NCBI GenBank assembly: GCA_016196035.1
Contig: JACPYM010000064.1
Location: 124,001-188,000 of the forward strand
Origin: Acidobacteriota bacterium
GTDB lineage: Bacteria > Acidobacteriota > Blastocatellia > RBC074
DNA: 64,000 nucleotides
Reading direction: 5' to 3'
Shown here: positions 1,138 through 18,877 of the stretch, piece after piece
Numbering within the stretch: the stretch's first letter is position 1
Layout of the letters: every line of letters begins with the position of its first letter
Program-made: the position numbers and the translations under genes
The notes under the pieces: model-generated
What the model was told of the DNA's origin: nothing
What the model saw: the letters and a program-made list of their open reading frames with translations, nothing else
Databases searched by the model: none

Positions 1138-1287
1138 GAGCGGGTTGCAGTTGCGTTTACGGGACGCCGGGGCGGTACCGCGCGCGTGAGCAAGCGGAGA
1201 CTATGCCGCTGCACTAATCCGTCCTACGTGACGCGCCGCTTGCTCACGCGCGCGGTACCGTCCCATACACCGTAGTGAAAACCGATC
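1138..1287. mobile_element. TIR element, copy 1 (150 bp core, flanked by TA)
   Basis: A non-coding element with imperfect terminal inverted repeats of about 27 bp, starting GAGCGG at one end and GATCGGTTTTCAC when the other end is read in reverse. TA lies immediately outside both ends (1136-1137 and 1288-1289). Inside is a second inverted repeat, GGTACCGCGCGCGTGAGCA with its complement, at 1174-1197 and 1236-1259. Two further copies occur at 11113-11287 and 14761-15060. It sits between the thioesterase start and the kinase stop. It encodes no transposase, so it looks like a MITE. Confidence 0.75.
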
Positions 1288-3434
1288 TAAGTTGTGTTAG
1301 CCGCGCAGCCCCGCGTTTCCCAGCTTGCGGCTGGGTTGTTGGTTTGCTGAAGCAACGCGGCAAAGCGCGGCCCCAGGTGCGGATCGTTGCGCAAGCCGTC
1401 AAACGCTGGCTCAACGGCCAGCCAGACCAGCCACGCTTCGCGCTCGGTACAAGCGCGCTCCAAACATTCAAGCGTTTTTTCGTTGTTGCCCAGCAGGCAA
1501 TGAATCAGCGCCACCAAATAAAACGAGATGTAGCGTTCAGTGGCGATGCCCATGAGCTTGTCCAATATCGCTGCGGCTTCCTCGCGCAGGCCGGCAGCGG
1601 CCAGCGCCTGCCCATACAGCAGCAACACGAGCGGGCCTTCGTTGGAAAGCTCGACCCAGCGTTTGGCCTCGCTTAAAGCCTCTTCGCGCGCGCCCATCAA
1701 ACGCAGCGTCCAACTCAACCCGTAATGCGCCATCGGATAAAGCGGATGCGCGGCGATGACGCGGCGGTATTGCGCCACGCTCTCGTCAAAGCGGCGCGCG
1801 AAATACAAACACCAGCCCAGGTTGTGACCGTTGTAGGGCGTCAGCGGGTCGAGTTCGAGACCACGCCGGGCGTGCGCCAAGCCTTCTTCAAAACGGCCTT
1901 CCATCGTGAGTTGCAGCGAATAGCAGATGTGCGCGTGCGCGTTGTGCGGATTCAACTCGATGGCGCGGCGGCACGCCTCTTCACCGCGCGCCCAATCGTA
2001 ATCGCCGACCAAGACGGCAAACCCAAGTGCGGCGTAGCCTTCTGAAAGCTCGCGGTCGAGTTCAATCGCTTTGGCAGCGGCGGCGCTGGCGGCGCGATAA
2101 CACTCATGGGGCGGCAGCACGCCATACACGCCCAGCCAGTTGTAATAGTCGGCAATCCCGGCATAAGGCAGCGCATATTGCGGGTCGAGCGCAATCGCCT
2201 GGTGATAGGCCACCAGCGCTTTGGCGAAACCTTCCTCGGTGAAGGTGTTCCAGTGATAGCGTCCGCGCAGATAAGCCTCGAACGCCGCCGGGTCGTTGGT
2301 GCCGCGCTTGTTCAATTGACGACGCTCTTCGCCCGTCAAACGCGGCACGAGCACTTTGGCGACTTGCGCGGTGACGGCGTCTTCGAGACTGAGCACGTCG
2401 GTGAAGCGTTCGTCGAATTGTTGCGCCCAGGCGCTCGCGCCCTGCCGCACATCGAGCAATTGCAATGACACGCGCATGCGGTCGCCCGTGCGCTTGATAC
2501 GCCCGTCGAGCACGAAATCAACCTTGAGTTCGCGCCCGGCGGCCAGCGGGTCAGCGGTATCGTCGCCATAGCGCAAGACGGAACTGGTCGGACGCACGGC
2601 CAAGCTGCGCACATTGCTCAAGCGTGTGATCAGGGCATCGGCAAAGCCCACGCTCAGATATTTCTCGCCCGTGTCTTCCTGCACCGGGAAGGCCAGCAAC
2701 TTGAGCGGCAGAATGGCAATGCTCGTCGTCCCGCTGGCTTGCTCGCGCGGCGCGGGCAACGGCCTCGTCGCTCTGGGGTCGGGGATGTAAACCGGCGCGG
2801 AAATCGGGCGGCCATCCAGATGCCGCGCGATGTCTTCGCGCAATTCGGCGGCGGATTGATAGCGCTGGCGCGGGTCTTTTCTGAGCGCCTTGAGCACAAT
2901 CCGGTCAAGGTTGCCCGCCAATTCGCGCTGCAACGTTTCGAGATCAGCGCCGCGCGCGTGATAAATCGCGTCGAGCGTCAGCGCGCCCGGCAGCGTTAGA
3001 TGATCGGCGCGCGTGAGGCTGGCGCTCGGCAGTTCCGGCTCTTCTTCGCAAACGACGCGCGCAATCTCGTGCATCGCGCGGCTGCGCAAGCGCAACGGAC
3101 GCTGGCCGGTCAGCAGTTCGTAAAGCACCGTGCCCAGACTGTAAACATCACTGGTCGGTTTGGCGCGTTCGCCGCGCACCTGTTCGGGGCTGGCGTATTC
3201 GGGCGTCATCATACGCAGCGCCGTCCCGGTGACATCAATCGTGTCGGCGGCCAATTCTGGTTGCAGCAGTTTGGCAATACCGAAATCGAGCAGCCGGGGC
3301 GCGCCGTCCGCCGTGACGAGAATGTTCGACGGTTTGATGTCCCGATGGACGACCAGATTTTGATGCGCGAACTGCACCGCCTCGCAGATGAGTTGGAACA
3401 AGCGCAGCCGCTCCGCGATGACCAGTTGGCACAC
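1287..3434 (-). CDS. Ser/Thr protein kinase C-lobe, TolB-like and TPR regions (downstream part of an interrupted gene)
   Basis: The larger, 3' part of a eukaryotic-like kinase gene, in the same reading frame as the ORF at 3438-3935 and separated from it only by one TGA. It contains the catalytic loop VVHRDIKPSNILV, the DFG motif (LLDFGIAKL) and the activation segment TPEYASPEQVRG. A TolB-like region follows (AILPLKLLAFPV... ADALITRLSN... VDFVLDGRI), then several TPR units (about residues 365-690 of this part). No membrane helix separates kinase and TolB-like region, unlike many relatives. A GTG at 3432-3434 could restart translation, but the product would lack the ATP-binding lobe. The stop codon TAG overlaps the edge of TIR element copy 1. 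It is the last gene of the efflux operon. Confidence 0.85.
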   Translation of the reverse strand: MCQLVIAERLRLFQLICEAVQFAHQNLVVHRDIKPSNILVTADGAPRLLDFGIAKLLQPELAADTIDVTGTALRMMTPEYASPEQVRGERAKPTSDVYSLGTVLYELLTGQRPLRLRSRAMHEIARVVCEEEPELPSASLTRADHLTLPGALTLDAIYHARGADLETLQRELAGNLDRIVLKALRKDPRQRYQSAAELREDIARHLDGRPISAPVYIPDPRATRPLPAPREQASGTTSIAILPLKLLAFPVQEDTGEKYLSVGFADALITRLSNVRSLAVRPTSSVLRYGDDTADPLAAGRELKVDFVLDGRIKRTGDRMRVSLQLLDVRQGASAWAQQFDERFTDVLSLEDAVTAQVAKVLVPRLTGEERRQLNKRGTNDPAAFEAYLRGRYHWNTFTEEGFAKALVAYHQAIALDPQYALPYAGIADYYNWLGVYGVLPPHECYRAASAAAAKAIELDRELSEGYAALGFAVLVGDYDWARGEEACRRAIELNPHNAHAHICYSLQLTMEGRFEEGLAHARRGLELDPLTPYNGHNLGWCLYFARRFDESVAQYRRVIAAHPLYPMAHYGLSWTLRLMGAREEALSEAKRWVELSNEGPLVLLLYGQALAAAGLREEAAAILDKLMGIATERYISFYLVALIHCLLGNNEKTLECLERACTEREAWLVWLAVEPAFDGLRNDPHLGPRFAALLQQTNNPAASWETRGCAANTT

Positions 3435-3437
3435 GTC

Positions 3438-3935
3438 TCAATGCCGGTAAAGCGGCTGCCCTTCGATGTGTTCCATCACGAAGTAAGGCAGCCCGTCCGC
3501 AGTCGTGCCGCCGTCGAGCAAGCGCGCGATGTGCGGATGATCAAGCGAGGCCAGAATCTGCCGCTCGCGGCGAAAGCGGCGCAGGATAAAATCCGAATCC
3601 ATCCCACGTTTGATGAGTTTGACCGCCACCTGTTTGCGAAACTCATTGTCGGCACGCGCACCCAGATAAACCGCGCCCATACCGCCGCGCCCGATTTCGC
3701 GCACCAGCCGGTATGCGCCCACGCGCCGCCCGATCAAGGGATCATCGGTCAAAAGCTCTGTCTCAACGGATTCACCGGCTTGCGTATGCCGCAGCAGCAG
3801 CGTGTCCACGGCGGTGCGCAAGGGATCATCCTCCGCGCCGAGCAGCACGAGATCGGTCTCGCGCTGATCGGCGGGAAGATCGCTTTCTCCCTGACAAATG
3901 TTTTCGCTTGGTTGCCAACGTCCAGTTGCCGTCAC
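3438..3935 (-). CDS. Ser/Thr protein kinase N-lobe (upstream part of an interrupted gene)
   Basis: The 5' part of the interrupted kinase, 165 codons. I chose the GTG at 3933-3935 because AGGAG lies 7 nt upstream (3943-3947) and because a longer start would overlap the RND pump gene. It carries the glycine-rich loop IGRGGMGAVYLG (about residues 81-92), the ATP-anchoring lysine in VAVKLIKRG and the hinge FVMEHIEGQPLYRH. The next codon is TGA (3438-3440) and the frame then continues DVCQLVIAERLRLF. In this kinase family the position filled by the TGA is usually Cys in a YCD tripeptide, so one base change (TGC/TGT to TGA) explains the interruption. It starts 38 bp after the pump gene on the same strand. 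Confidence 0.85.
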   Translation of the reverse strand: MTATGRWQPSENICQGESDLPADQRETDLVLLGAEDDPLRTAVDTLLLRHTQAGESVETELLTDDPLIGRRVGAYRLVREIGRGGMGAVYLGARADNEFRKQVAVKLIKRGMDSDFILRRFRRERQILASLDHPHIARLLDGGTTADGLPYFVMEHIEGQPLYRH

Positions 3936-3972
3936 TGCTTTGCTCCTTGTCTGTCTGTGATTGAAAAGCCGC

Positions 3973-6900
3973 TTAGCTTTCCGTGTGCGCGACTCCCAGC
4001 AGGTCACTGCCCGACGGCGCAAAGCCGTCCGCTGCCGGATGCTCCGTTGCCTGCTCCGGCGTCTCCCACTTCACGAGTTTGAGGTCGAGCACGAAGATGG
4101 CGTAAAGCACCGGCACCAGCAGCAAGGTCACGAACGTCGCGACGCTCAAGCCGCCGATTTGCGCGTAACACATCGGCTCCCACAGCGGGCCGCCGTGCGA
4201 AGCCAGCGGGAACAGCGCGATCACCGTTGCGCCGACCGTAATCAAGACCGGACGCAAGCGCATGATCCCCGCATCCAGCAAGGCTTCGCGCAGCGGCGCG
4301 CCGTGTTCGTGCGCCTCTTCGATAAAATCAAACAGCACGATGACGTGGCTGACGATGACGCCCACCAGACTCACGCAACCGAGGAAAGCCATAAAGCCAA
4401 ACGGTGAACCCATCACCCACAATGCCGCCAGCGCACCCACCATTCCGAACGGAATCGCCGCGAAGACGATCAACGGTTTGACCGTGTGTTTGAATTGAAA
4501 GACCAACGCCAGGAAGATCGCCACGATGGAAATCATCAGCACGACCGTCAGGTCTTTGAAGCCTTTGATTTGGTCTTCCTGTTCGCCGCCGATTTCCATC
4601 TGGTAACCGGGCGGCGGTTTGGCCCCGAAGGCAGCCAGATTTTCTTTCACCGCCTTCATCACTTCCGACGGCAGGTGTCCGTCTTTGGGGAAGCAGGAAA
4701 CCGTGATGGTGCGGAACTGATTGCGCCGCCGCAGTTTTTCGGTCTGCATCCCGTGCGCGATGGAGGAAACCTGCCCCAACGGCACCCGCGTCGTCCCTTG
4801 CGCCGCATAAACGTAAAGGTTGTTGAGGTCGGCCAGTTGCGCGCGCTCTTCCATACGCAACCGCGCCACAACCGGAATCTGCTTGTCGCCTTCGCGCAAG
4901 GTCGTCACCTTTTGACCGGTGATCGCCGTGGACGAGGCCGCCGCCACGTCATAGTTGGTGACGCCCGCCAAGTTCGCGCGGTCGGCATCGGTTTGCAGCT
5001 TGACCGTGAAACTCTCGTCGCCCCAGTCATCGCGCACGCGCGTGGCGAACGGCGTGGCCCGCAACAGCGCTTTGACCTGTTCGGCCTGTGCGCGCAAAGT
5101 TGCGATGTCTTCACCCGACAAGCGAATCTGCACCGGCAAGCCGACAGCCTTGCCCGATTCGAGTTGGCGCACATCCACACGCGCGCCCGCGACTTCGGCG
5201 TTGAGCGCTTTTTGCAACGGCGCGATCAGGTGTCCGGTGTCGTGTTTGTCTTTGACCTGGATGATAATCTGCGCGTAATTGAGTTGTTGCAGTTCCGGCG
5301 CGACGGAGAACCAGAAACGCGGGCCGCCGCCGCCGATAAAGGTCGTCAGCGATTTCAGCACGTCGCCTTCTTTGTGCTCTTCGCCGTATTCTTTGGTCAC
5401 GCGGCGGATCACTTCTTCGGCACGATGCGCGGCCTCGTTCGTCGCGGTCAGCGGCGCGTCTTCGGGCAGCCAGACATCCACGTAAGACAGATAGGACAGG
5501 TCTTTCGGGAAGAACGACTGTTTGAGCTGGCTGCCAAAAAAGCCGCCGAGCACCAGAAACGCGAGCGCCCCGGCCAGGAACTTCCAGCGATGATTGATGG
5601 CCGCATTGCCGACGCGGTAGTAAAACGCCGCGAAGCCCTTGGTGCGGCGTTCGGCCAAACTCGGCTCCGCTTTCGGGCGCAGCAGGTAATAGCCCAGCAA
5701 CGGAATGAAGGTCATCGAGACCAACCGCGAAGCCACCAGCGAGCAGGTCAGCACGACCGGCAGCGAATAAATGAATTCGCTGGTCGCGCCGCTCATCAAC
5801 AGGAAGGGCAGATAGGCGACGATGTTCGTCACCGTGGCGTACATAATCGCCGAGGCCAGCTTCGTCGGCCCCAACCACGCCGAAATCACGGACGGTTGCC
5901 CATCAGCCAAGCCGCGTTTGATGGCATCGCCCGCCACGACCGGATCATCCACCAGCAAGCCCAGCGCGATGATGAGCGAAGCCACCGAGACCTGCTGCAA
6001 ATCAATGCCCAGCGCGTGCATCAGCCCGAAGGTCATCAGCAGCGTGATCGGCATCGAGAGCGCCATCAACGCCGCCGAACGCCATTCCCAAAAACCAATC
6101 AACGAAACGATGACGACCAGGATGATCGCTTCGTAAAGGCTGTTCATGAACAAATCCAGATTCTCGCGCACCTGCAACGGTTGGTCGGACGTGCGCGCCA
6201 TCACCAAATCGGCGGGCAGGCGTTTTTTCAAATCGGCGAGTGTCGCGTCTACACCCGCACCGAACTTGTCAATCTGTTCGCCCGAACGCATCTGCGCCGC
6301 CAGCGTGATCGCGCGCGTGCGCTGCCACTCACCCTTCGCATCGCGCCAGTTGTAGTAGTTCAAAAACGTCGGCGGGCTGTTGTACCCGCGCACCACATCC
6401 GCCAGATCGCGCAGGTACACCGGCGCGCCATTGGCTGACGTGCCCACGGCCACGTCGCCGATTTCCTTTTCGCTTTTGAATTCGCCGGTCGGATCAATCG
6501 AGAGGTTCTTGCCTTCGACTTCGAGCTGGCCGCCCGGCAAAGTGATGTTGCGCGCGTTCAGGATGTCGGGCAGTTTGCCGTTCTGTATGCCATAGGCCGC
6601 CAGCCGTTCCTGCGAGTAATAAAGAAAGACGCGCTCATCCAACAGCCCTGTGCGCGAGACTTTGGACACCGTGGGCAGTGTCTTCAGGCTCTTTTCGATC
6701 AAGTCGGTGAATTGATCGAGTTCGCGGTAGCTGTATTTGTCGCCCGCCACCGCCGCCAATTTAGTGCGCGTCTCTTGCGGATTGCGAATCACCGCCATCG
6801 GCCAGGCGTCAGGGTGGAATTCGGCAGCTTGCAAGCGCTCGTGCATAAAACGCGCGGAAGCTTGACGCAACGCGGCATCATCCACGCTGACCGCGCCATC

Positions 6901-7629
6901 CACGCCGATGAACCCGGCGCCTTCGAGCGGGCGCGCGTCGCTCAGCACGTGCTGCTCTTTCAGGTATTCGACAAACAGATCGCGATGCTTGCGCACCAGT
7001 TGCACGCTGTCGCTCGCGTCCCCGCTCGCGGCTTGCGGCAAACAAACGATCAGCGCGGCACGTTCGCCCGCGACTGAAGCTTGCGCGCGGGCTTGTTCCA
7101 GCGCCGGTTGAATTGCCTGCGCGCGCAAATCAATTTCGAGGTCGCTGGCTTTCGGGCTGGCGACGGTGAGCATCAACGCCGCTGTGTCGCCGAAATCCTT
7201 GATGAAGTTGATCGGCCCCGCGCCATCGGGCAAATCACGGATGCCGTCCAGTTTGAGTTTGATGTCGTCGAGTTCCTTGCCCGTCTCTTTCAGGTTTTCA
7301 TCCAGATCGAGATAGACCACCGACAAGCCGGTGCGCGAGATGGATTCGATCTTCGTGACCTTGGCGTTGGTGGCAATTTGCGTCTCGAGTTTTTTGGTGA
7401 CGAGTTGTTCGACCTTTTCCGCGCTCGCCCCGCGCCAGGGCGTCAGGGCGACCGCCGTGCGCACCTGCACTTCGGGGTCTTTGCGCCGCGGCATTTGCAG
7501 GTAGCCATACACGCCCCACAAACAGGTGGCGATGAGCAGCACCCAGGCGACGTGGCGTGTCTCGACAAAGAAGCGCGACGTGTTATGCGTTTTGTTGATG
7601 ATGTCTGCGTCGTTGCGATGTTGTGACAT
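3973..7629 (-). CDS. RND-family efflux transporter permease (AcrB-like)
   Basis: A 1,218-aa inner-membrane proton-driven exporter, the pump of a tripartite system with the adaptor and TolC-like genes just upstream. TM1 is at about residues 27-45 (VAWVLLIATCLWGVYGYL), followed by the porter-domain opening PRRKDPEVQVRTAVALTPWRG. TM4 keeps the acidic pair (ALGLLVDDPVVAGD). The second transmembrane block is clear (GCVSLVGVIVSHVIVLFDF, then MRLRPVLITVGAT). Two oddities: the protein is about 170 residues longer than AcrB-type pumps, with an Ala-rich insertion in the first porter region (about residues 175-275), and the TM10 lysine of AcrB is replaced by Ser-His. AGGAG precedes the ATG with 8 nt spacing. 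The substrate is unknown. Confidence 0.92.
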   Translation of the reverse strand: MSQHRNDADIINKTHNTSRFFVETRHVAWVLLIATCLWGVYGYLQMPRRKDPEVQVRTAVALTPWRGASAEKVEQLVTKKLETQIATNAKVTKIESISRTGLSVVYLDLDENLKETGKELDDIKLKLDGIRDLPDGAGPINFIKDFGDTAALMLTVASPKASDLEIDLRAQAIQPALEQARAQASVAGERAALIVCLPQAASGDASDSVQLVRKHRDLFVEYLKEQHVLSDARPLEGAGFIGVDGAVSVDDAALRQASARFMHERLQAAEFHPDAWPMAVIRNPQETRTKLAAVAGDKYSYRELDQFTDLIEKSLKTLPTVSKVSRTGLLDERVFLYYSQERLAAYGIQNGKLPDILNARNITLPGGQLEVEGKNLSIDPTGEFKSEKEIGDVAVGTSANGAPVYLRDLADVVRGYNSPPTFLNYYNWRDAKGEWQRTRAITLAAQMRSGEQIDKFGAGVDATLADLKKRLPADLVMARTSDQPLQVRENLDLFMNSLYEAIILVVIVSLIGFWEWRSAALMALSMPITLLMTFGLMHALGIDLQQVSVASLIIALGLLVDDPVVAGDAIKRGLADGQPSVISAWLGPTKLASAIMYATVTNIVAYLPFLLMSGATSEFIYSLPVVLTCSLVASRLVSMTFIPLLGYYLLRPKAEPSLAERRTKGFAAFYYRVGNAAINHRWKFLAGALAFLVLGGFFGSQLKQSFFPKDLSYLSYVDVWLPEDAPLTATNEAAHRAEEVIRRVTKEYGEEHKEGDVLKSLTTFIGGGGPRFWFSVAPELQQLNYAQIIIQVKDKHDTGHLIAPLQKALNAEVAGARVDVRQLESGKAVGLPVQIRLSGEDIATLRAQAEQVKALLRATPFATRVRDDWGDESFTVKLQTDADRANLAGVTNYDVAAASSTAITGQKVTTLREGDKQIPVVARLRMEERAQLADLNNLYVYAAQGTTRVPLGQVSSIAHGMQTEKLRRRNQFRTITVSCFPKDGHLPSEVMKAVKENLAAFGAKPPPGYQMEIGGEQEDQIKGFKDLTVVLMISIVAIFLALVFQFKHTVKPLIVFAAIPFGMVGALAALWVMGSPFGFMAFLGCVSLVGVIVSHVIVLFDFIEEAHEHGAPLREALLDAGIMRLRPVLITVGATVIALFPLASHGGPLWEPMCYAQIGGLSVATFVTLLLVPVLYAIFVLDLKLVKWETPEQATEHPAADGFAPSGSDLLGVAHTES

Positions 7630-7747: not shown

Positions 7748-9148
7748 TTACGGAATGATTTGCACTGCTTGCCCGTCGAGCGTGAGTGTTGCGCCGGTCG
7801 TAATGACGCGCTCGCCCGCGCGCACGCCGTCGAGCACGACCATCGTGTTGCCGAGCGCTTCGCCCAGCTTGACGGTGCGTGTGCGCGCGATGGCTTGGCC
7901 GCCTTTGTCTTCCACCACGAACACGGCGTATTGGCCGGCCTGCTCGGCCTGACTAGATTGCCCTTTGGCGCGCACGATGGCGGTGACGGGCACGACGGTG
8001 ACTGGTTCGGCGGGCGCGGCGGCGACTTCGAGCGCCGCGATCATGCCGGATTTGAGCAGGCGGCGCGGATTGGGAATCGTGACTTCGATTTCAAAGACGC
8101 GGCTCTTGGGATCGGCGGCGGGGGCGATGCGCGTGATCTGGCCTGACAGTTCTGTGCCCGGCAACGACTCGGTCGTGACGGTCAGCGCCGCGCCCAATTG
8201 CAGCTTCGCCACAGCCAGGTCGGGCACGCCGAAAACAGCCTTGACCGAATTCAAATCGGCGACGGTGAACCCCGTTTTGCCGGCGGAAACGAGCGTGCCG
8301 ATTTCCACTTCTTTTTTCAGCACGACGGCATTGAGTGGCGCGCGCAACGCGGTGTCTTGCAGCGGAATCGTCGCTTCGCTGATGACGGCCTGCGAGCCTT
8401 TGACCTTGGCGCGCAGCACGTCAATTTGCGCGCGGGCCGATTCGGCGCGGGCTTCCAGCATCACGACTTGCGAACGCGCGGCGTTGCGTTTGGCTTCGCT
8501 GCTCTCGAACTGCGTCTTGGCCGCGTCATAATCGGCCTTGGTCATGCTCTGACTGGCAAAGAGGTTTTGCGCACGCTCGAAATCCAGGCGCGTTTTCCCG
8601 AAGGCGGCTTCGGCTTCGGCCAGTTGCGCACGGCTTGAAGCAACCGCCGCCTGGGCATCGGCGAATTGCGACTGTCCGCCGTCCAGCCCCGATTTGGCTT
8701 CGGCGGATTGCGCTTCGGCCTGCTTTACCTTGACTGCGTAATCGCTTTGCCGCACGCGCGCCAGCACTGTCCCGGCAGCCACGACATCGCCTTCCTGCAC
8801 CGCGCGTAACTTGCCATCCACGCCGCGCACTTGCAGCAACCCTTCGACATAGCCGCCGACCTTGAAGGCCAAGTCCACTTGCGAATGCGGCATGATGACT
8901 GCCGAATAACGCACGCCTTTGTTGACGGTGTGCTGTTCGACCGCTTTGACTTTGACGGAGACCGCCGCCGGTTCCGCCGTCGCCGTCTTTTCGTGGCAGC
9001 CGGTGAGCGTAAGAGCGCCGGGTAAAAGACAGGCGGCAAAAATCAATGCGCGAGAATGCCGCTGCAACTTGCCGATCACTTTGCCGCCCGTCGCGCCGCT
9101 CACTTGCGGTTGTTCGTTTACTGCTTGTCCATGGTTGTTTTCTTTCAT
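7748..9148 (-). CDS. HlyD/AcrA-type periplasmic adaptor lipoprotein of RND efflux
   Basis: A 466-aa membrane-fusion protein that bridges the RND pump and the outer-membrane channel. I chose the ATG at 9146-9148 because AGGAGG lies 9 nt upstream; longer starts run into the tolC-like gene. The N-terminus has a signal segment (LIFAACLLPGALTLTGC) ending in a lipobox, so it is probably an inner-membrane-anchored lipoprotein. A biotinyl-lipoyl-like half (EGDVVAAGTVLARV), a long Ala/Gln-rich coiled-coil hairpin (about residues 150-260), the second lipoyl half (LRAPLNAVVLKKEVEIGTLV) and a beta-barrel plus membrane-proximal domain follow. It is the middle gene of tolC-adaptor-pump. Confidence 0.92.
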   Translation of the reverse strand: MKENNHGQAVNEQPQVSGATGGKVIGKLQRHSRALIFAACLLPGALTLTGCHEKTATAEPAAVSVKVKAVEQHTVNKGVRYSAVIMPHSQVDLAFKVGGYVEGLLQVRGVDGKLRAVQEGDVVAAGTVLARVRQSDYAVKVKQAEAQSAEAKSGLDGGQSQFADAQAAVASSRAQLAEAEAAFGKTRLDFERAQNLFASQSMTKADYDAAKTQFESSEAKRNAARSQVVMLEARAESARAQIDVLRAKVKGSQAVISEATIPLQDTALRAPLNAVVLKKEVEIGTLVSAGKTGFTVADLNSVKAVFGVPDLAVAKLQLGAALTVTTESLPGTELSGQITRIAPAADPKSRVFEIEVTIPNPRRLLKSGMIAALEVAAAPAEPVTVVPVTAIVRAKGQSSQAEQAGQYAVFVVEDKGGQAIARTRTVKLGEALGNTMVVLDGVRAGERVITTGATLTLDGQAVQIIP

Positions 9149-9200
9149 TTGATTCTCCCTCCTAACTTCGTCTGCGTTTTTGCCGTTTGCAGTTGCTGGT

Positions 9201-10565
9201 TTATTGATCGCCGCCGAGGGCTTTCTCGAAATCGGCGCGCGCCGTCCAGCAAGCCAACAACGCTTGTTGATATTGGTGATTGGCATCGGCCAGCGTGGTC
9301 TGCGCTTGCAGCACGTCTTTGAGCAGCGCCGCTTGCGCGTTGTAGCGGTTCGCCGCGACGCGCACTTGTTCGCGCGCCGATTCCTGGGTCAGTTGCCCGA
9401 TGGTCAGCAATTGGCGCGTCTGTTGCAGCTTGCGGAACTTGCTGTTGACCTCGCTCAGCACCGAGCTTTCGGCACTCTGCAAATTGAGTTCGGCTTGCGT
9501 CAGGCTGCGATCCTTTTCGGCCAGTTCGCGCTTTTTGCGGCCCCAGTCAAACGGCTCCCAACTCAAGCTCACGCCCGCCGTGGTGATCTGGCGCGGCACG
9601 AAATTGCCGCTCTGCGGCGAGATGTAATTGAAGCTCAAACTGACTTCCGGCAGATATTCCGACTTCTTGATGCGCCGGTCGTAGTTGGCCTGTTTGAGCT
9701 TGAGCCGCGCCTCTTGCATTTCGGGCCGCTGGTTGAGTGCCTGTTGATGCGCCGCGTCCAAATCCATTTCGGTGTGCGTGAAGACCGGAGCCGGACTGAC
9801 CGAAAACGCGGTGTGAATGTCGCGGCCCAGCAATTGATTGAGTTGTTCCTTTTGCGCCGCCAGCGTGTCGTTGAGTTCCAGCGCGTCGTATTCGGCTTTC
9901 GCCAACCGGGTTTTGACTTCCAGGCTTTCGCCCTTGAGCGCGACCTGTTGCACAACGTATTCGCCGGTCACGCGGTCGAGTTCGCGATACAGCTTGAGCG
10001 TCTCTTCATTGGTGCGCAGCGCGCTCTGGGTTTGCAGGATGGCGTAATAAGTCTGCTTGACGTTGTTGACGATGGTTTGCTGCTGCGCCCGCACTTCCTG
10101 TTTGGCTAACTCGCGTCCGACGCCCAGTTGTTTCAGATTCAGCCCGATGCGATAAAGCTGCGAGAGCGGCTGATTGACCTGCCCGGCCAGCACCGTGTTC
10201 AGCTTGCGCGGCGTGCTGATGATGGTCTCGGTCGAAGGGATCGGCCCCAGCCCCGGATAATCGCCGAACACGCCCCGGTCAAATTTGAAATCGAGCGTCG
10301 AGAGCAATTGCGAACTGGACGCCGTGAATTTGAATTGCGGCAGCCGTTGCGTGCGCGCCGCCGCCACACGGTCACTGGCCTTGTCCACTTCGAGCGCGGC
10401 GGTTTTGACCTGCCGGTTATCCAACAGCGCCAGCGCGATGGCGTGTTCCAGCGTTAATTGCTCGCCCTTTGCCAGCGCGACGTCGGTGGGTTGTTGCCCT
10501 TGGACAGCGCGTGAACTGCCCAGCAAGAGCAGCAGTGCGAATAAGAATGTGATTCGAGTTTGCAT
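9201..10565 (-). CDS. TolC-family outer-membrane efflux protein
   Basis: A 454-aa outer-membrane channel of the tripartite exporter. The ATG at 10563-10565 is preceded by GGAGGA with about 5 nt spacing and starts a signal peptide (ITFLFALLLLLGSSRAVQG). An open frame continues upstream for 124 codons but has no such features and crosses the sigma-54 promoter. Two OEP repeats are visible: LTLEHAIALALLDNRQVKTAALEV at the start and the region LDAAHQQALNQRPEMQEARLKL near the middle, each followed by long helices. It is the first gene of the operon and lies behind a sigma-54-type promoter with a shared upstream block. Confidence 0.92.
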   Translation of the reverse strand: MQTRITFLFALLLLLGSSRAVQGQQPTDVALAKGEQLTLEHAIALALLDNRQVKTAALEVDKASDRVAAARTQRLPQFKFTASSSQLLSTLDFKFDRGVFGDYPGLGPIPSTETIISTPRKLNTVLAGQVNQPLSQLYRIGLNLKQLGVGRELAKQEVRAQQQTIVNNVKQTYYAILQTQSALRTNEETLKLYRELDRVTGEYVVQQVALKGESLEVKTRLAKAEYDALELNDTLAAQKEQLNQLLGRDIHTAFSVSPAPVFTHTEMDLDAAHQQALNQRPEMQEARLKLKQANYDRRIKKSEYLPEVSLSFNYISPQSGNFVPRQITTAGVSLSWEPFDWGRKKRELAEKDRSLTQAELNLQSAESSVLSEVNSKFRKLQQTRQLLTIGQLTQESAREQVRVAANRYNAQAALLKDVLQAQTTLADANHQYQQALLACWTARADFEKALGGDQ

Positions 10566-10703: not shown

Positions 10704-10719
10704 TGCAACGGCTTTGCCA
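10704..10719 (-). promoter_or_regulatory. Sigma-54 (-24/-12) promoter of the efflux operon
   Basis: Read on the minus strand the site is TGGCAAAGCCGTTGCA. It matches the RpoN consensus (TGGCAC, spacer, TTGCW) with GG and GC dinucleotides separated by the required distance. It lies about 140 bp before the tolC-like start codon. The equivalent site before the 53-aa gene (16065-16080) has the same layout relative to a shared upstream block, which strengthens both calls. Confidence 0.72.
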
Positions 10720-10813
10720 GAATGCCGAGCAGCGAGTGCAAACTCTTTAAGCTGCTGATCTGAAAAGGATTTTCTTGACGTGCGAGGCAGCAAGCCGAGG
10801 CAAATGACGACGA

Positions 10814-10862
10814 GTGCCGAAGCGTTTGCCGACGAAATATCGTCAAGTGCCGAAATATCGGA
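10814..10862. promoter_or_regulatory. Putative enhancer (UAS) for a sigma-54 activator, copy A
   Basis: A 49-bp block identical to 16173-16221 except for one base. It holds two near-palindromes built on CGAAATATCG: GACGAAATATCGTC and CCGAAATATCGG, with a further GTGCCGAAGCG at its edge. It starts about 95 bp upstream of the -24 box, the usual distance for a bacterial enhancer-binding protein. The activator at 16283-18877 is the obvious candidate to bind it; this is inference. Confidence 0.65.
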
Positions 10863-11073
10863 ATCAGGGTTGGTGAGGAATGGCGGGTCAGTCACCGCGC
10901 ACTGTTTACGGCGGCTCGCCCACTCGAACAACGGCAACTGAATCCCGCTTCCTGATGCCTGACAACTGGTCTCTTAACAGTTGTCAGGGTTCAGGATTCA
11001 GTTCGGGCGCGTCGTGAGTATGCGCTTGTGAAGGTTTGCGGCAGGTGCTTTCAAGGTGAGGGCATTGATTGAA

Positions 11074-11315
11074 GGTTCAGAGTTCACGCTTTAGCGTGTC
11101 GCTGTCGAATTAGAGCGGTTTGCAGTTGCGTTTACGGGAGTCAGTTGACGCTGGGACAGTACCGCGCGCGGGAGCAAGCGGCGCGTCAAGCTTGCCCCCT
11201 TGGCTGAATTGCCAAAGCTCCGCTTGCTCACGCGCGCGGTACTGTCCCGCTACGTGGTTTTCCCATACATCGAAGTGAAAACCGATCTAACACGCTAAAG
11301 CGTGAACTCTGAACC
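11074..11315. repeat. Palindromic repeat split by TIR element copy 2
   Basis: The left arm (11074-11099, GGTTCAGAGTTCACGC then TTTAGCGTGT) and the right arm (11290-11315) are exact complements, but are separated by the 175-bp TIR element plus 11 bp and two TA dinucleotides. A related palindrome without an insertion lies at 18979-19075. Removing the element and one TA restores a hairpin with a 13-nt loop, the same loop length as in the intact copy. Confidence 0.85.
11113..11287. mobile_element. TIR element, copy 2 (175 bp core), nested in a palindrome
   Basis: The ends match the other copies: GAGCGGTTTGCAGTTGCG on the left, and the right end reads GATCGGTTTTCACTTCG in reverse. TA flanks both sides (11111-11112 and 11288-11289). 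Internal inverted repeats of the GCTTGCTCACGCGCGCGG type are present. It has no coding capacity. The TA flanks and terminal repeats suggest mobilisation in trans by an IS630/Tc1-mariner-type transposase, which is not present in the window. Confidence 0.8.
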
Positions 11316-11333
11316 ACGGTCTTTGCGAAACAG

Positions 11334-11405
11334 AAAAAGGCCGAGGATGCGCTCGTCAATTTTGCCCCTGCAATCAGGGTTGAAATGACGGCCAGCCTCG
11401 GCCAA
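11334..11405 (-). terminator. Terminator-like structure after the large lipoprotein gene
   Basis: GGCCGAGG (11339-11346) pairs with CCTCGGCC (11396-11403). On the minus strand the stem is followed directly by TTTTT, as in an intrinsic terminator. The long intervening stretch contains a smaller hairpin, CCCTG-CAAT-CAGGG. It lies about 40 bp past the stop of the 821-aa lipoprotein gene. Confidence 0.6.
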
Positions 11406-11444
11406 TTGGTTTAAGTTGAAATGTTGTGGTTTGTTCCGTCCGCG

Positions 11445-13910
11445 TTACCGGCGCAACCGTCCGCCGCCACGCAGCCCTCCTCCTCCGCCAAAGCCGCCAC
11501 CGGAACCAAGGCGTGGCCCGACTACACCGGAATTCCCGTTGAGGCCGCCCGCCGTGCGGAAGCTGTCCCAACGTTGCTGCCCAGTGGCCCGCGCCGCCTG
11601 GTGGTCTTGAATGCGCTGGGCATCGGCGGGCTTGTTCACCCCCGACCAGCCGTTGTCGGTGTGTTGCTGCAAACCGTCGGACTTGTTGTAGCGATAGACT
11701 TCGCCATCGTGCCCGGCGTAAACATTGTTCTTCCCGACGGCCACGCCCGTATCCGTCCGTGTGTTATAGGCGAAGCCGCGTCCGGCTGCCGACACTTGCC
11801 CCGTCGAGGCGTCGTAAGTCGCGCCTGCCGCGCCGCCACTGACGACACCCGTGCGCGGGTTGTAGCCCGCCCCGCGCGCGCCAGCCGCAGCGTTGCCCGT
11901 GTAAGCATTGCTCACCGCACCCGCTTGCCCGACTGCGCTGCGGCCCGTGTAGGGGTTATAGGCCACGCCGCCTGCGCCCGAAACGGTCGTGCCGGTGTAG
12001 ACATTCGTGTTCGTGAACCCGCGCCCGTTATAGCGCGTGCCGGTTGCCGTGTTCACGCCGGAGAAAGCACCGCCGTGCCCGACATTGCCGGTGTAAGGAT
12101 TGGCCCACGCCGCGCGCGTTCCGGCATACGCCACATTGCCCCAATGCCCATAGACATTCGCCGCCACCACGCCGCCCCACGCCGCCGGATAGTAAGCAGC
12201 GGCAGTCCACGCTCCCGGATAGTAGTAAGAACTCCAGCCGTAGCCGATGCCGAAGGCCACGCCCCAACCCGCGTATGTATTCCAGGTGAAGCCCGCGCCA
12301 TAGCCGTAGGTACAGCCCCAGCCGTAATAGTAGCTGCCGACATACGGCGCATAGCGCCAGCCCGTGCCGTACACGACGACGTTGTTAGAAGACACGACCG
12401 TGCCGTAATAGCCCGGCGTATAACCAACATAGACCGTCTCCGCCGTCGCGCCGTAGACCTTAACGTAGGTCACATTGTGCACCGGCGAACTGGGCGGAAT
12501 CGTGTAAATCACCGTCGGCACCGAAGCCGCGACAGTCCACGGCCCCGTCGCCGCACTCGCCACAAACCAGACACCATTCAGCACTGCGTAGTAGCTGTCG
12601 GCGCTGACCGCAATCACCGGCGTCGCCGTATTCACGGCATATTGCAGCGTCGTGCTTTCGATGGGCCTGAACTGCGGCTGGCCGTCGTAACTCACCGTGA
12701 GACTGGCCGCATTGCGCGAGATGGTCGCGGTTTGCGGCACCTCGTTGGCGATCAGGGCTTCCAGCGCTTGCGGTGTGCCCGGCACTGAAGCCAGCACGCT
12801 GGCCTTTTCATGACTCGGCGAAATCCGGGCGAAGTCGGCGGGCAAGCGTTCGCCAGGCACGTATTCCCACGGCCCGTTCATGGACTTGCCGCGAAACCAG
12901 CGGCCCGCAATCAGCATATAGCGATCCTGCGCGACGGTTTCCAGAAAGATGTCGTTTTCGGTGTTCGTCACATACACAAGCTGCGTCCCGGCGATGGGCG
13001 CGAGTTGCGGCTCGCCTTGCGTTTGCAGCAACTCCGCCGGTTTCAGACTGACATAAATCACCGGCAAGGCATTGCGTTGCATGGCTTCGCTCAACGTGGG
13101 CCGCTGGTCGCCTGCGCCATCCAGCAAATCCACCTGCGCTGTTTGCGCCGCCACGGCCAACGCCTTTTTCAAATCGGACGGCGTACTCGCCGCCACGCTC
13201 CACGGGCCAGTCACGCTGTCCGCTTCCAGCCAGCCATCCAGCAGATGCAGATAGCATTTGCCTTTGTCGGCGTCGCGCACGATCAGCACGCGCGTATTGA
13301 TGATGCGTTGCAGATGCGTGTCTTTGACCGGACGCCAGACCGGTTCGCCATCAACCAACACCAGAATTGCCTTGCTCGTACTGAATAGGATTTGCGGCGG
13401 TTGGTTGTTGAGCTGATAGCCTGCGCTCGCCGTCCGGGCCTGCGTGATGGACATCTCAGCCAACAAGCGATCAAGCGCGATCACTTCGTCGGTCTTCAGC
13501 GCCCGCGCTTGCAGGATGCCGTGGTAATGGGTGGCGCTTTCGGTGTTCGCGGGGAAACTGACTTTGGTGATGTTGAAATCAGTCAGCGTCACCAGCCGGT
13601 TGACCTTGTCTACCTCCGTGCGCGCGGTGAACCAGACCACGCCATAGGCCGGTTGTTTGCTCTGGCCGCTGGTGACGGCCACGGCGGCGCGCGCGGCAAA
13701 TTTGTTGTCTTGCCATTTTTCGATCTGCGGTTGATAGACGGCAAAGGAGGTCGCGCCGTTGGTGAACGTGCGCGGCCAGCCTTTGTCGGTAAAGGCGTTT
13801 GTCTTCGCGTTTGGCTGGGCAGCGGGTTGCGCACAGGCCGACAAACAGGCCGCCATCAGCCAGCAAAGCGCGCCTAAGAGCGCGTAAAAGCGCGTGGCAC
13901 TTCGTTTCAT
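11445..13910 (-). CDS. Large secreted lipoprotein with Tyr/Gly-rich C-terminal half
   Basis: An 821-aa exported protein of unknown function. The N-terminus is a signal segment ending LMAACLSACAQP, a plausible lipobox. Residues about 40-470 look globular and contain repeated units of the type PVWRPVKDT...LLDGWLEADSVTGPWSVA and LNGVWFVASAATGPWTVA, a pattern I know from predicted proteins often labelled carbohydrate-binding family V/XII. The rest is low-complexity, rich in Tyr, Gly and Trp (YYYGWGCTYGYGAGF), with short repeats such as NPYTGNVG/NPYTGRSA, and ends in a Gly/Arg tail. Its start codon overlaps the stop of the 239-aa gene (ATGA), so the two are translationally coupled. A structural cell-envelope role is plausible but not shown. 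Confidence 0.75.
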   Translation of the reverse strand: MKRSATRFYALLGALCWLMAACLSACAQPAAQPNAKTNAFTDKGWPRTFTNGATSFAVYQPQIEKWQDNKFAARAAVAVTSGQSKQPAYGVVWFTARTEVDKVNRLVTLTDFNITKVSFPANTESATHYHGILQARALKTDEVIALDRLLAEMSITQARTASAGYQLNNQPPQILFSTSKAILVLVDGEPVWRPVKDTHLQRIINTRVLIVRDADKGKCYLHLLDGWLEADSVTGPWSVAASTPSDLKKALAVAAQTAQVDLLDGAGDQRPTLSEAMQRNALPVIYVSLKPAELLQTQGEPQLAPIAGTQLVYVTNTENDIFLETVAQDRYMLIAGRWFRGKSMNGPWEYVPGERLPADFARISPSHEKASVLASVPGTPQALEALIANEVPQTATISRNAASLTVSYDGQPQFRPIESTTLQYAVNTATPVIAVSADSYYAVLNGVWFVASAATGPWTVAASVPTVIYTIPPSSPVHNVTYVKVYGATAETVYVGYTPGYYGTVVSSNNVVVYGTGWRYAPYVGSYYYGWGCTYGYGAGFTWNTYAGWGVAFGIGYGWSSYYYPGAWTAAAYYPAAWGGVVAANVYGHWGNVAYAGTRAAWANPYTGNVGHGGAFSGVNTATGTRYNGRGFTNTNVYTGTTVSGAGGVAYNPYTGRSAVGQAGAVSNAYTGNAAAGARGAGYNPRTGVVSGGAAGATYDASTGQVSAAGRGFAYNTRTDTGVAVGKNNVYAGHDGEVYRYNKSDGLQQHTDNGWSGVNKPADAQRIQDHQAARATGQQRWDSFRTAGGLNGNSGVVGPRLGSGGGFGGGGGLRGGGRLRR

Positions 13911-14626
13911 AGACCACCTCCGTTCGTTTTGTAATCAAAGTTTTCCGTGAGCAATTGCAACGCCTCTTTCGGATAATCCACGACCGTGCGCGCCATATAG
14001 GTCGGCCCCATCGGCAGATCGTCGAATTCGATCACGGCGCGCACCGGATTTCTTTCCAGCACCGTCGCGATTTCGACGCGGCGCTGTTTGCGGGTTCGGG
14101 CGTCGAGCCAAATCGTCAGCGTATCACCGGCTTGCAGGACGTTGCCGCCATGCAATTGCACGACGCCCTGATCCAGCCGGGCGGTAATGGTCGCGCTTGC
14201 CAGAAAGGCCTGCATCTTGGCGGGCGTGAGGTGGCTATACGCTTCCACCTGCGCGCGCAACGCATTGACCGTCTCGATGAAATCTTCCTTCTTCTTTTCA
14301 GCGATGCGCCCGAGGATTGGCCCTTTCGGCATAGCCGGAGGCGCAGAACCACCGATCTGACTCTTTTGCAGATTGCCGAGCGCGTCGTAACGCAGCGCGA
14401 ACACTTGCGTGCTCTTGCTCTCGCCATTCTTGCGGACTTCGTTGCGCGACTTCCAGGTGTATTGTTTCAGCGCCTGGGCGTTCTGTTGCTGCGCGCGGGC
14501 GAACATTTCTTTGAGTTGCCCGGGGTCTTGCGCCTGGGCCACCAGCACGCTGCACAGCAGCAAGCGGATGAGCGACCCCGCGCCAATCCAGGCCCTCAAT
14601 TTCGCCTTGTTGTTTTTGGTGTTCAT
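13907..14626 (-). CDS. Secreted protein of unknown function (239 aa)
   Basis: I chose the ATG at 14624-14626 because AAGGAG lies 7 nt upstream; an earlier in-frame ATG at 14701 lacks one. The N-terminus is basic, then hydrophobic (LIRLLLCSVLVAQAQ), consistent with a signal peptide. The mature part starts with a Gln-rich helix (LKEMFARAQQQNAQALKQYTW) and continues with mixed alpha/beta sequence ending in DYPKEALQLLTENFDY. I do not recognise a named domain; the overall pattern resembles periplasmic outer-membrane-lipoprotein-sorting-like folds, which is only a guess. It overlaps the next gene by 4 bp, so they probably act together. Confidence 0.7.
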   Translation of the reverse strand: MNTKNNKAKLRAWIGAGSLIRLLLCSVLVAQAQDPGQLKEMFARAQQQNAQALKQYTWKSRNEVRKNGESKSTQVFALRYDALGNLQKSQIGGSAPPAMPKGPILGRIAEKKKEDFIETVNALRAQVEAYSHLTPAKMQAFLASATITARLDQGVVQLHGGNVLQAGDTLTIWLDARTRKQRRVEIATVLERNPVRAVIEFDDLPMGPTYMARTVVDYPKEALQLLTENFDYKTNGGGL

Positions 14627-14760
14627 CAAAATTCTCCTTCCTTCTCGCGTTGTGTTTGCAAGCGGAGAGAACAGTCTCTCCGCTTGCCTCGTTGTTTTCA
14701 TTGGTAGTGATAAAAATGCAGGGCCGCATTTGCAGCCGCGTCACGACGAGCCTGAATTTA

Positions 14761-15060
14761 GTTCGGTTTTCACTACGGTGTACGGGAAACCGCGCAGCGG
14801 GGCAGTCCCGCGCGCGTGAGCAAGTGGACGTTGACATTGGGGCAGTAGGGGGCAAGCTTGACGCGCCGCTTGCTCACGCGCGCGGGACTGCCCCAATGTC
14901 AACGTCCACTTGCTCACGCGCGCGGTGCTGTCCCAACGTCAACGTCCGCTTGCTCACGCGCGCGGTACTGTCCCAACGTCAAGCTTGACGTCCGCTTGCT
15001 CCCGCGCGCGGGACTGTCCCAACGTCAACTGACTCCCGTAAACGCAACTGCAAACCGCTC
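14761..15060. mobile_element. TIR element, copy 3 (300 bp core), inverted and internally expanded
   Basis: This copy is in the opposite orientation: it begins GTTCGGTTTTCACTACGG and ends with the complement of GAGCGGTTTGCAG. TA lies outside both ends (14759-14760 and 15061-15062). It is twice as long as copy 1 because the internal unit CTTGCTCACGCGCGCGG is repeated four times in tandem (starting 14869, 14909, 14949 and 14994), facing one inverted copy at about 14802-14828. It lies between the DUF4136 gene and the 239-aa gene and may carry the latter's promoter region. Confidence 0.78.
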
Positions 15061-15150
15061 TAGTCCGGCGTTTTCAATCCCGCAACTAACTTCGATTGCC
15101 GTGCTGCGGCAATCACAAGGCGGCCCTACCTCGCCCTTACTGCCTCCTTT

Positions 15151-15666
15151 TTATTTCTGTGAATAGGGGAAATTCTGGAACATCTTGTTGAGCGCCGTTT
15201 GCAGCGCCTTCTCATTCTTTTCCAGCTTGCTGCTGATGGTGCCGCTGGCGGTGCCGCGCCAGACAAATTTCTGGCTGTGCGTATCGCCGATGTCCACCAT
15301 CAGTTGCCCCACCGGCACCTTGTCCACATTCACCGTGCCCGTGCCCCAGCGCCAGCCGCCCAACGGGCCGCCGCCAAAGGTGTTGATCGAAACCTGTGTG
15401 TCGGTGGCCGCGTGATAGACGACGACGCAATCGGGATTGCTCTCGACCTTGCGCAGCCCTTTCAGCGCCAATTGCGCCTCGATGCCCGCCACGATGCGTT
15501 GATGAATCATGGGATTGCGCGCCGCCGTGCCGGGCGCCCAGGCGTAGGTTTTGTATTGCGAAAGATTTGTGCCTTTGTCGGCATCCACGCTCACCTTTTG
15601 CGCCAGCGCGCTGCTGACACTGAGCAGCAGCAAGCCAAAACCCAGCACGATACGTGTTAATTTCAT
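15151..15666 (-). CDS. DUF4136 family exported protein
   Basis: 171 aa. I chose the ATG at 15664-15666, preceded by AAGGAG. It starts a signal peptide (IVLGFGLLLLSVSSALAQ), after which the DUF4136 pattern is clear: DADKGTNLSQYKTYAWAPG, then IEAQLALKGLRKV, DCVVVYHAATD, VGQLMVDIGDTHSQKFVWRGTASG and a final helix LQTALNKMFQNFP. These are periplasmic or lipoprotein-like proteins of unknown biochemical role, common in envelope-related operons. No lipobox Cys is present here. It lies 123 bp after the 53-aa gene on the same strand; two small hairpins (15721-15736 and 15743-15762) lie in that gap. Confidence 0.85.
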   Translation of the reverse strand: MKLTRIVLGFGLLLLSVSSALAQKVSVDADKGTNLSQYKTYAWAPGTAARNPMIHQRIVAGIEAQLALKGLRKVESNPDCVVVYHAATDTQVSINTFGGGPLGGWRWGTGTVNVDKVPVGQLMVDIGDTHSQKFVWRGTASGTISSKLEKNEKALQTALNKMFQNFPYSQK

Positions 15667-15789
15667 AGTGATCTCTCCTTTGCGTTGAAGCTTGTTTTGC
15701 ATGTCCTTTTCCTTGTGTTGGCGCAGTTGCCTGCGCGATGAAGGCAACGTCACAGCGTTGCCCCTTGGTTGCCGCGCGTGGGCCGTGGC

Positions 15790-15951
15790 TCACGCGCGCG
15801 TTTGTTGATCGGTTGATTGTGGTTCTGTGGCGCCGTTGTCGCCTGGTGTCTCTTCCACCCGCTTGCCATAAACGTTTGAAATCGCCAGCACCAGAATGAG
15901 GGTGCAAAACCCGGTGAATAGCAGGATGGTTGCGAACATTACGAACTCCAT
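15790..15951 (-). CDS. Small single-pass membrane protein (53 aa), sigma-54 controlled
   Basis: A short ORF with one strong hydrophobic segment near the N-terminus (FATILLFTGFCTLILVLAIS) followed by a hydrophilic, acidic tail (VEETPGDNGATEPQ). I read the start as the ATG at 15949-15951, with GGAG about 8 nt upstream; an ATG four codons later is an alternative. The open frame extends upstream to 16266 but crosses the promoter and is not expected to be translated. It is supported as a gene by its position directly behind a -24/-12 promoter and shared enhancer block. I do not recognise the family. Confidence 0.6.
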   Translation of the reverse strand: MEFVMFATILLFTGFCTLILVLAISNVYGKRVEETPGDNGATEPQSTDQQTRA

Positions 15952-16064
15952 ACTCGATCTCCGTTCTCCTTTCTTTGAGCACGATGGCTCTTCACGTTGT
16001 TCTGACCAGTCAGGCCGCGTTCGAGAGCGGCTTCTGCCGGATGACTTGCGACGCCGGAGAGAAG

Positions 16065-16080
16065 GGCAAGCGCTTGGCCA
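16065..16080 (-). promoter_or_regulatory. Sigma-54 (-24/-12) promoter of the 53-aa gene
   Basis: On the minus strand the site reads TGGCCAAGCGCTTGCC, with GG and GC at RpoN spacing. It lies about 115 bp before the start codon. Its distance to the shared 49-bp block (about 93 bp) is nearly the same as at the efflux operon. A small palindrome, TGCCGAAAATTCCGGCA (16084-16100), sits just upstream of the -24 box and could be an additional operator. Confidence 0.7.
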
Positions 16081-16172
16081 AAGTGCCGAAAATTCCGGCA
16101 GTGCGTTCAAGCCGCTGAAGTGAAATAGGTTAGGCTGACAAAGGACGGATGAATCGCGGTTGCTGAGGCTGC

Positions 16173-16221
16173 GTGCCGAAGCGTTTGCCGACGAAATATC
16201 GTCAACTGCCGAAATATCGGA
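16173..16221. promoter_or_regulatory. Putative enhancer (UAS) for a sigma-54 activator, copy B
   Basis: The second copy of the 49-bp block found at 10814-10862, with one base difference. The two embedded near-palindromes, GACGAAATATCGTC and CCGAAATATCGG, are fully conserved. It lies between the activator gene stop (16283) and the promoter at 16065-16080, so a product of the neighbouring activator gene is the most economical ligand. Confidence 0.65.
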
Positions 16222-16282
16222 ACTGGCGCGCTGCGCTGCGGCGCGTGAGCGGAACTGGCGGCTCAATCCTCTTTATGCGGCT

Positions 16283-18877
<2,595 letters not shown>

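Follow-up and report, generated by a model that had tools for sequence, protein, structure and literature searches.

The window analysed here is a 64-kb stretch of an Acidobacteriota genome that carries, all on the minus strand, two operons and the gene for a sigma-54 activator, with a candidate -24/-12 promoter and an upstream activator site (UAS 1 and UAS 2) ahead of each operon. The first operon encodes a TolC-type outer membrane factor (9201-10565; PF02321, 142.6 bits), a HlyD/RND periplasmic adaptor (MFP) whose start may be near 9148 (7748-9286; TIGR01730, 184 bits against a cut-off of 94.9) and an RND permease of 1218 residues (3973-7629; PF00873, ACR_tran, 511 bits against a cut-off of 28), so that the RND efflux operon placed behind the first promoter by the original prediction is identified by Pfam and NCBIfam models. 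The closest solved chain to the permease is MexK. The pump resembles the MexK/MdtB group in its RND family and tripartite gene set, and departs from it in its inferred sigma-54 control and in scoring below the cut-off of every NCBIfam multidrug RND subfamily (best 421.5 against 1250), which means that its substrate cannot be named. Directly after the RND gene lies a Ser/Thr kinase-TPR gene (1287-4022, minus strand), with one in-frame stop near 3435-3437, within the kinase domain.

The second operon begins with a 53-aa predicted single-span membrane protein (15790-15951), followed by a DUF4136 protein that apparently carries a signal peptide (15151-15666; PF13590, 124 bits). It probably also includes P264, a probably secreted protein of unassigned family (13907-14626), and an 821-aa, probably secreted Gly/Tyr-rich protein (11445-13910), whose place in the UAS 2 transcript is inferred only. 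Homologs of the 53-aa protein precede DUF4136 in the related genomes G009 and G019, where the order 53-aa, DUF4136, P264 recurs, and a further homolog is present in G007. The 53-aa protein had been proposed as the second target by itself; it is conserved in relatives, and it heads an operon and is not a lone gene. P264 is 65-72% identical in two relatives, with gene order kept, and its predicted structure is unusable (mean pLDDT 40.9). Relatives of the 821-aa protein are mostly from Proteobacteria, lack a neighbouring activator or RND gene and lie near DUF4136 in 3 of 33 cases, and are therefore uninformative on regulation. Between the DUF4136 and P264 genes is a repeat-rich gap of 500 bp (about 14630-15150). 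A repeat of about 41 bp with the core CCGCTTGCTCACGCGCGCGGTACTGTCCC occurs in tandem and inverted orientation at 14862-15028, 14803-14840 and 11157-11256, and again at locus L107 on contig C34 of the same genome, beside a paralogous UAS; it looks like a dispersed REP-type element. An Rfam scan returned one tRNA and nothing else.

The activator gene (16283-18877) ends 60 bp from UAS 2, and in relatives the UAS is similarly placed after the activator stop codon. Its product of 864 residues matches GAF_2 in three stretches, the AAA+ sigma-54 interaction domain (Sigma54_activat, PF00158, 243 bits) and a Fis-type HTH (HTH_8, PF02954, 32 bits), confirming the predicted three-GAF sigma-54 activator beside the second site. 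The translation contains GAFTGA, which together with the AAA+ and HTH domains identifies it as a bEBP of the NtrC family. It shares GAF, AAA+ and Fis-type HTH domains with FhlA/HyfR-type activators. The best-scoring NCBIfam model is indeed that of FhlA (PRK15429), at 678.9 bits under a cut-off of 830 and hence short of an equivalog assignment; further differences from FhlA are the three GAF domains and predicted targets that are exporters, not formate hydrogenlyase. The genome has one rpoN match, above cut-off at 408.9 bits.

Upstream of the two operons, the blocks at 10814-10862 and 16173-16221 differ by a single base, as first noted; read along transcription (10863-10814 and 16222-16173), 49 of 50 aligned positions are equal. 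The copies lie 5.4 kb apart at 98% identity, and identity drops to background at both block edges, the flanks being unrelated. Such a pair would be expected by chance in 64 kb about 1e-17 times. The window has four occurrences of CGATATTTCG where chance predicts 0.16, and every one falls within the two blocks. Alignment with sites beside orthologous activators resolves the layout as a 16-bp palindrome, 2 bp, a second 16-bp palindrome, 8 bp and a half-site TTCGGCA, which bears out the two near-palindromes of the original prediction. UAS 2 (16173-16222, minus strand) accordingly reads TTCCGATATTTCGGCA, 2 bp, TGACGATATTTCGTCG, 8 bp and half-site TTCGGCAC, and UAS 1 (10814-10863, minus strand), with its sharp boundaries, is the same but for one base; CGAAATATCG represents the cores of the 50-bp element. 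The block as a whole reads as a compound enhancer, two palindromes plus a half-site.

A profile built from nine such sites, using sequence only, was run against the 9.6-Mb genome and gave three strong sites, at 56.5 bits (UAS 1), 55.3 bits (UAS 2; E 5.2e-14) and 50.2 bits, the next independent match scoring 17; the nine sites included those of the window, whose own scores are thus not independent. The third site is at C34, beside a paralogous activator that is 62% identical to that of the window. BLAST of the genome found no further near-full copy of the block, the weaker matches being short except for one of 29 bp at C34. These counts bear on an alternative origin, in which a mobile or REP-like repeat inserted at two places and has no regulatory role. 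Two near-identical copies 5.4 kb apart, with other dispersed repeats nearby, would suit such an origin; yet the 9.6-Mb genome has no near-full copies besides these two, their boundaries are those of the conserved element, and elements in other genera and families occupy comparable positions with a -24/-12 at a fixed distance. We rejected the repeat reading on the BLAST and profile counts and regard it as extremely improbable.

The -24/-12 elements fall where they had been predicted, TGGCAAAGCCGTTGCA at 10704-10719 ahead of tolC and TGGCCAAGCGCTTGCC at 16065-16080 ahead of the 53-aa gene (both minus strand), with 10 bp between the GG and GC dinucleotides of each, as a -24/-12 promoter should have. 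By itself the pattern carries no significance: the window holds 10 occurrences of the core TGGC-N7-TTGC against 6.3 expected, and 10 of 100 shuffles reach as many. The two promoter calls rest, as a consequence, on fixed distance and conservation. Counted from the UAS end to TGG, the spacing is 94 bp for tolC and 92 bp for the 53-aa operon, equal within counting convention to the 95 and 93 bp given before and inside the range of about 80-150 bp before the promoter that characterises upstream activator sites. Relatives have 95, 94, 94, 96, 94, 94, 94, 95 and 97 bp, so that the -24 element lies 92-97 bp downstream of the UAS in 11 of 13 loci. Four genomes (G061, G019, G347 and G003) were left out of profile building, and at three loci outside the profile set the spacing is 94, 94 and 95 bp (chance about 3e-11). 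In G009 and G007, the UAS ahead of the small operon has its nearest -24/-12 candidate at 82 bp, beyond the usual range, and this candidate is weaker. A looser pattern, TCGGCA-N76-106-TGGC-N7-TTGC, was dropped as too degenerate, most of its matches looking like chance.

About ten bases past TTGC, at the predicted start region, most loci carry CGTCG; in both window promoters this motif is GGCGTCGCA. The UAS-promoter intervals of the two window copies are unrelated in sequence, which bears on a further explanation, that the UAS is real and its near-identity the product of recent duplication or gene conversion, one copy perhaps being non-functional. The 98% identity does exceed that between orthologous sites of relatives, but both copies have a -24/-12 at 92-94 bp and GGCGTCGCA across an unrelated interval, and we consider this explanation unlikely. 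Both promoters also have a TCGGCA half-site a few bases upstream of -24, at 10724-10729 in the tolC promoter and at 16085-16101 (minus strand) in that of the 53-aa operon, where it forms part of an additional near-palindrome, TGCCGGAATTTTCGGCA, that adjoins -24 on its upstream side; these half-sites, which were not seen in the promoters of relatives and are specific to the window, are possible additional activator sites. Within the loops (10720-10813 and 16081-16172) and their counterparts in relatives, we observed a recurrent TAAC..TTTC..TTCA..TTGATT-like stretch resembling an IHF/HU bend site. Its summed best match scores 87, a value that none of 200 shuffles reaches (mean 78), but as the shuffles were mononucleotide the statistics are weak and no more than suggestive of an IHF-type bend site.

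The arrangement extends beyond this genome. Across 147 genomes of the class, every enhancer match of at least 25 bits has an orthologue of the activator gene, or else a target operon, for a neighbour. In G009 and G007 pump operon and small operon each have a UAS of their own; G019 has a single UAS, with a -24/-12 candidate on either side, flanked by the small operon and, running divergently, an operon of STAS-like, zinc-ribbon, HlyD, ABC and ABC-2 genes. The joint recurrence of both targets in these three genomes indicates that the pairing of pump and small operon is older than the genome studied here. In G003, on a short contig where no activator is seen, the genes that follow the site are zinc-ribbon, STAS-like, TolC, adaptor and RND. 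When RND orthologs were surveyed throughout the phylum, the majority of TolC-adaptor-RND sets proved to lack an activator in their vicinity, and in other classes the activator is mostly absent, which limits sigma-54 control to a subset, mainly of the same class.

Does this activator class read the enhancer? The recognition segment of the window activator is KRTTLNSRMQKLGI. Helices with TTL-Q or TTL-N go with TGCCGA sites at 11 loci (the window, L104, L105, L106, L107, L108, L172, L174, L175, L176 and L177), and those with TTL-I or TTL-L go with TGTCGA sites at five (L109, L110, L113, L187 and L276). A split as complete as this is one in 4368 arrangements (computed by hand), a figure that ignores the relatedness of the cases by descent. 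An exception limits the rule: L178 has TTL-N then H, with a TGACA site. Of the sequence evidence, this pairing speaks most strongly for a reading of the enhancer by this activator class and not by some other factor, and it would serve as a partial guide only. Activators with other helices are L173 (G019 C27), with a palindrome TGCGATATTTCGCA just downstream, ahead of TolC-adaptor-RND, and L178 itself (G085 C9), with the palindrome TGACAGCGGTTTGTCA just downstream.

Taken with the conserved layout and spacing to -24/-12, the retention of the enhancer beside orthologous activators in relatives strengthens the reading of the window as a small sigma-54 regulon, in which the neighbouring GAF activator acts on two compound enhancers and switches both operons on together. 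We consider this very likely, and the original prediction of a two-promoter regulon run by that activator is supported by the conserved enhancer, spacing and linkage. In the mechanism we envisage, the GAF domains would sense a ligand; the activator (16283-18877) would bind each enhancer as an oligomer, on two palindromes plus one half-site; and the DNA would loop over about 94 bp, allowing the activator to open sigma-54 RNA polymerase at both -24/-12 promoters. TolC-adaptor-RND and the 53-aa/DUF4136(-P264-821-aa) operon would thereby be co-activated, and their products may export something or protect the envelope.

The C34 paralog complicates the assignment of the regulator. It might mainly serve the window elements, or both activators might share a single cross-wired regulon made up of the three operons (RND, ABC-2 and small-protein), given a recognition segment of KRTTLQSRMQKLGI against KRTTLNSRMQKLGI and a C34 UAS of the same layout. 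Against this, every UAS cluster adjoins its own activator gene, and the window copies share TTCCGA and TGACGA arms from which the C34 site differs. Control by the paralog thus seems to us possible but rather doubtful, and we retain the neighbouring activator as the regulator. The circuit had been called dedicated, a description that goes further than the data, since a paralog with nearly the same helix, next to the third site and its ABC-2 exporter, makes cross-talk possible.

Among known systems, the one-component bEBP regulons of Desulfovibrio vulgaris, mostly of one to four operons, likewise have the activator gene co-localised with a sigma-54 promoter and include a tested activator site with three half-sites (PMC4641369). 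The window differs in combining a tripartite exporter with a small envelope operon under two copies of one compound enhancer, and the words efflux and RND are absent from the main text of that study. Sigma-54 has also been described as a controller of the bacterial exterior (PMC3162934), a text that does not mention efflux, RND or Acidobacteria; the common theme is sigma-54 control of envelope functions. The enhancer offers a concrete, testable code for a bacterial group in which descriptions of sigma-54 regulons seem scarce, and the paired change of helix and half-site a way to predict the targets of related activators.

The window circuit exemplifies a recurrent cassette whose pump class varies from one locus to the next, and the link between a GAF sensor and export pumps recurs with three unrelated pump types. 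Behind related UAS sites lies a STAS-like protein of about 90 residues, often a zinc-ribbon protein, then TolC, HlyD and the pump. The pump is of the RND type in G003, G009, G007 and the window (here with no STAS-like gene ahead of it). At C34, G009 C20, G061, G073, G347 and G019 it consists of an ABC ATPase and two ABC-2 permeases, and at G009 C15b, which is of the TGTCGA type, it is an EmrB-like MFS pump. The STAS-like family occurs in 27 of 396 genomes of the phylum, within 4 kb of an activator in 16 of 22 cases. It scores 18.6 against Pfam STAS_2 (cut-off 29.2), and a profile search matched the anti-sigma antagonist TM1442 at E 0.0018; as the cut-off is missed and the match weak, we use the label 'STAS-like'. 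The residue following its conserved Asp, which we take to be the phospho-site position, varies. MlaB, which is the STAS component of a lipid-transporting ABC system (PMC7367683), is likewise a small protein of this kind associated with a transporter; the STAS-like gene, unlike MlaB, accompanies ABC-2, MFS and RND pumps alike, near a bEBP, and its product has weak similarity to anti-sigma antagonists only.

We suggest, as a plausible reading that we hold with some reserve, a hitherto undescribed type of export cassette, pump-agnostic and probably belonging to Acidobacteriota, made up of a GAF bEBP, a compound enhancer, a sigma-54 promoter, a STAS-like (often also zinc-ribbon) accessory protein, TolC/HlyD, an exchangeable RND, ABC-2 or MFS motor and co-regulated small envelope proteins, in which tuning of either activator or pump would fall to the accessory protein. 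No description of it was found in the literature searched, a coverage that takes in few subscription papers. The cluster of the window has a STAS-like gene of its own outside the window (C64:122394-122657), on the strand of the RND operon and some 5.3 kb beyond its RND gene, where it comes after an NDH-2-like oxidoreductase gene. In G009, an NDH-2-like gene directly follows the RND gene.
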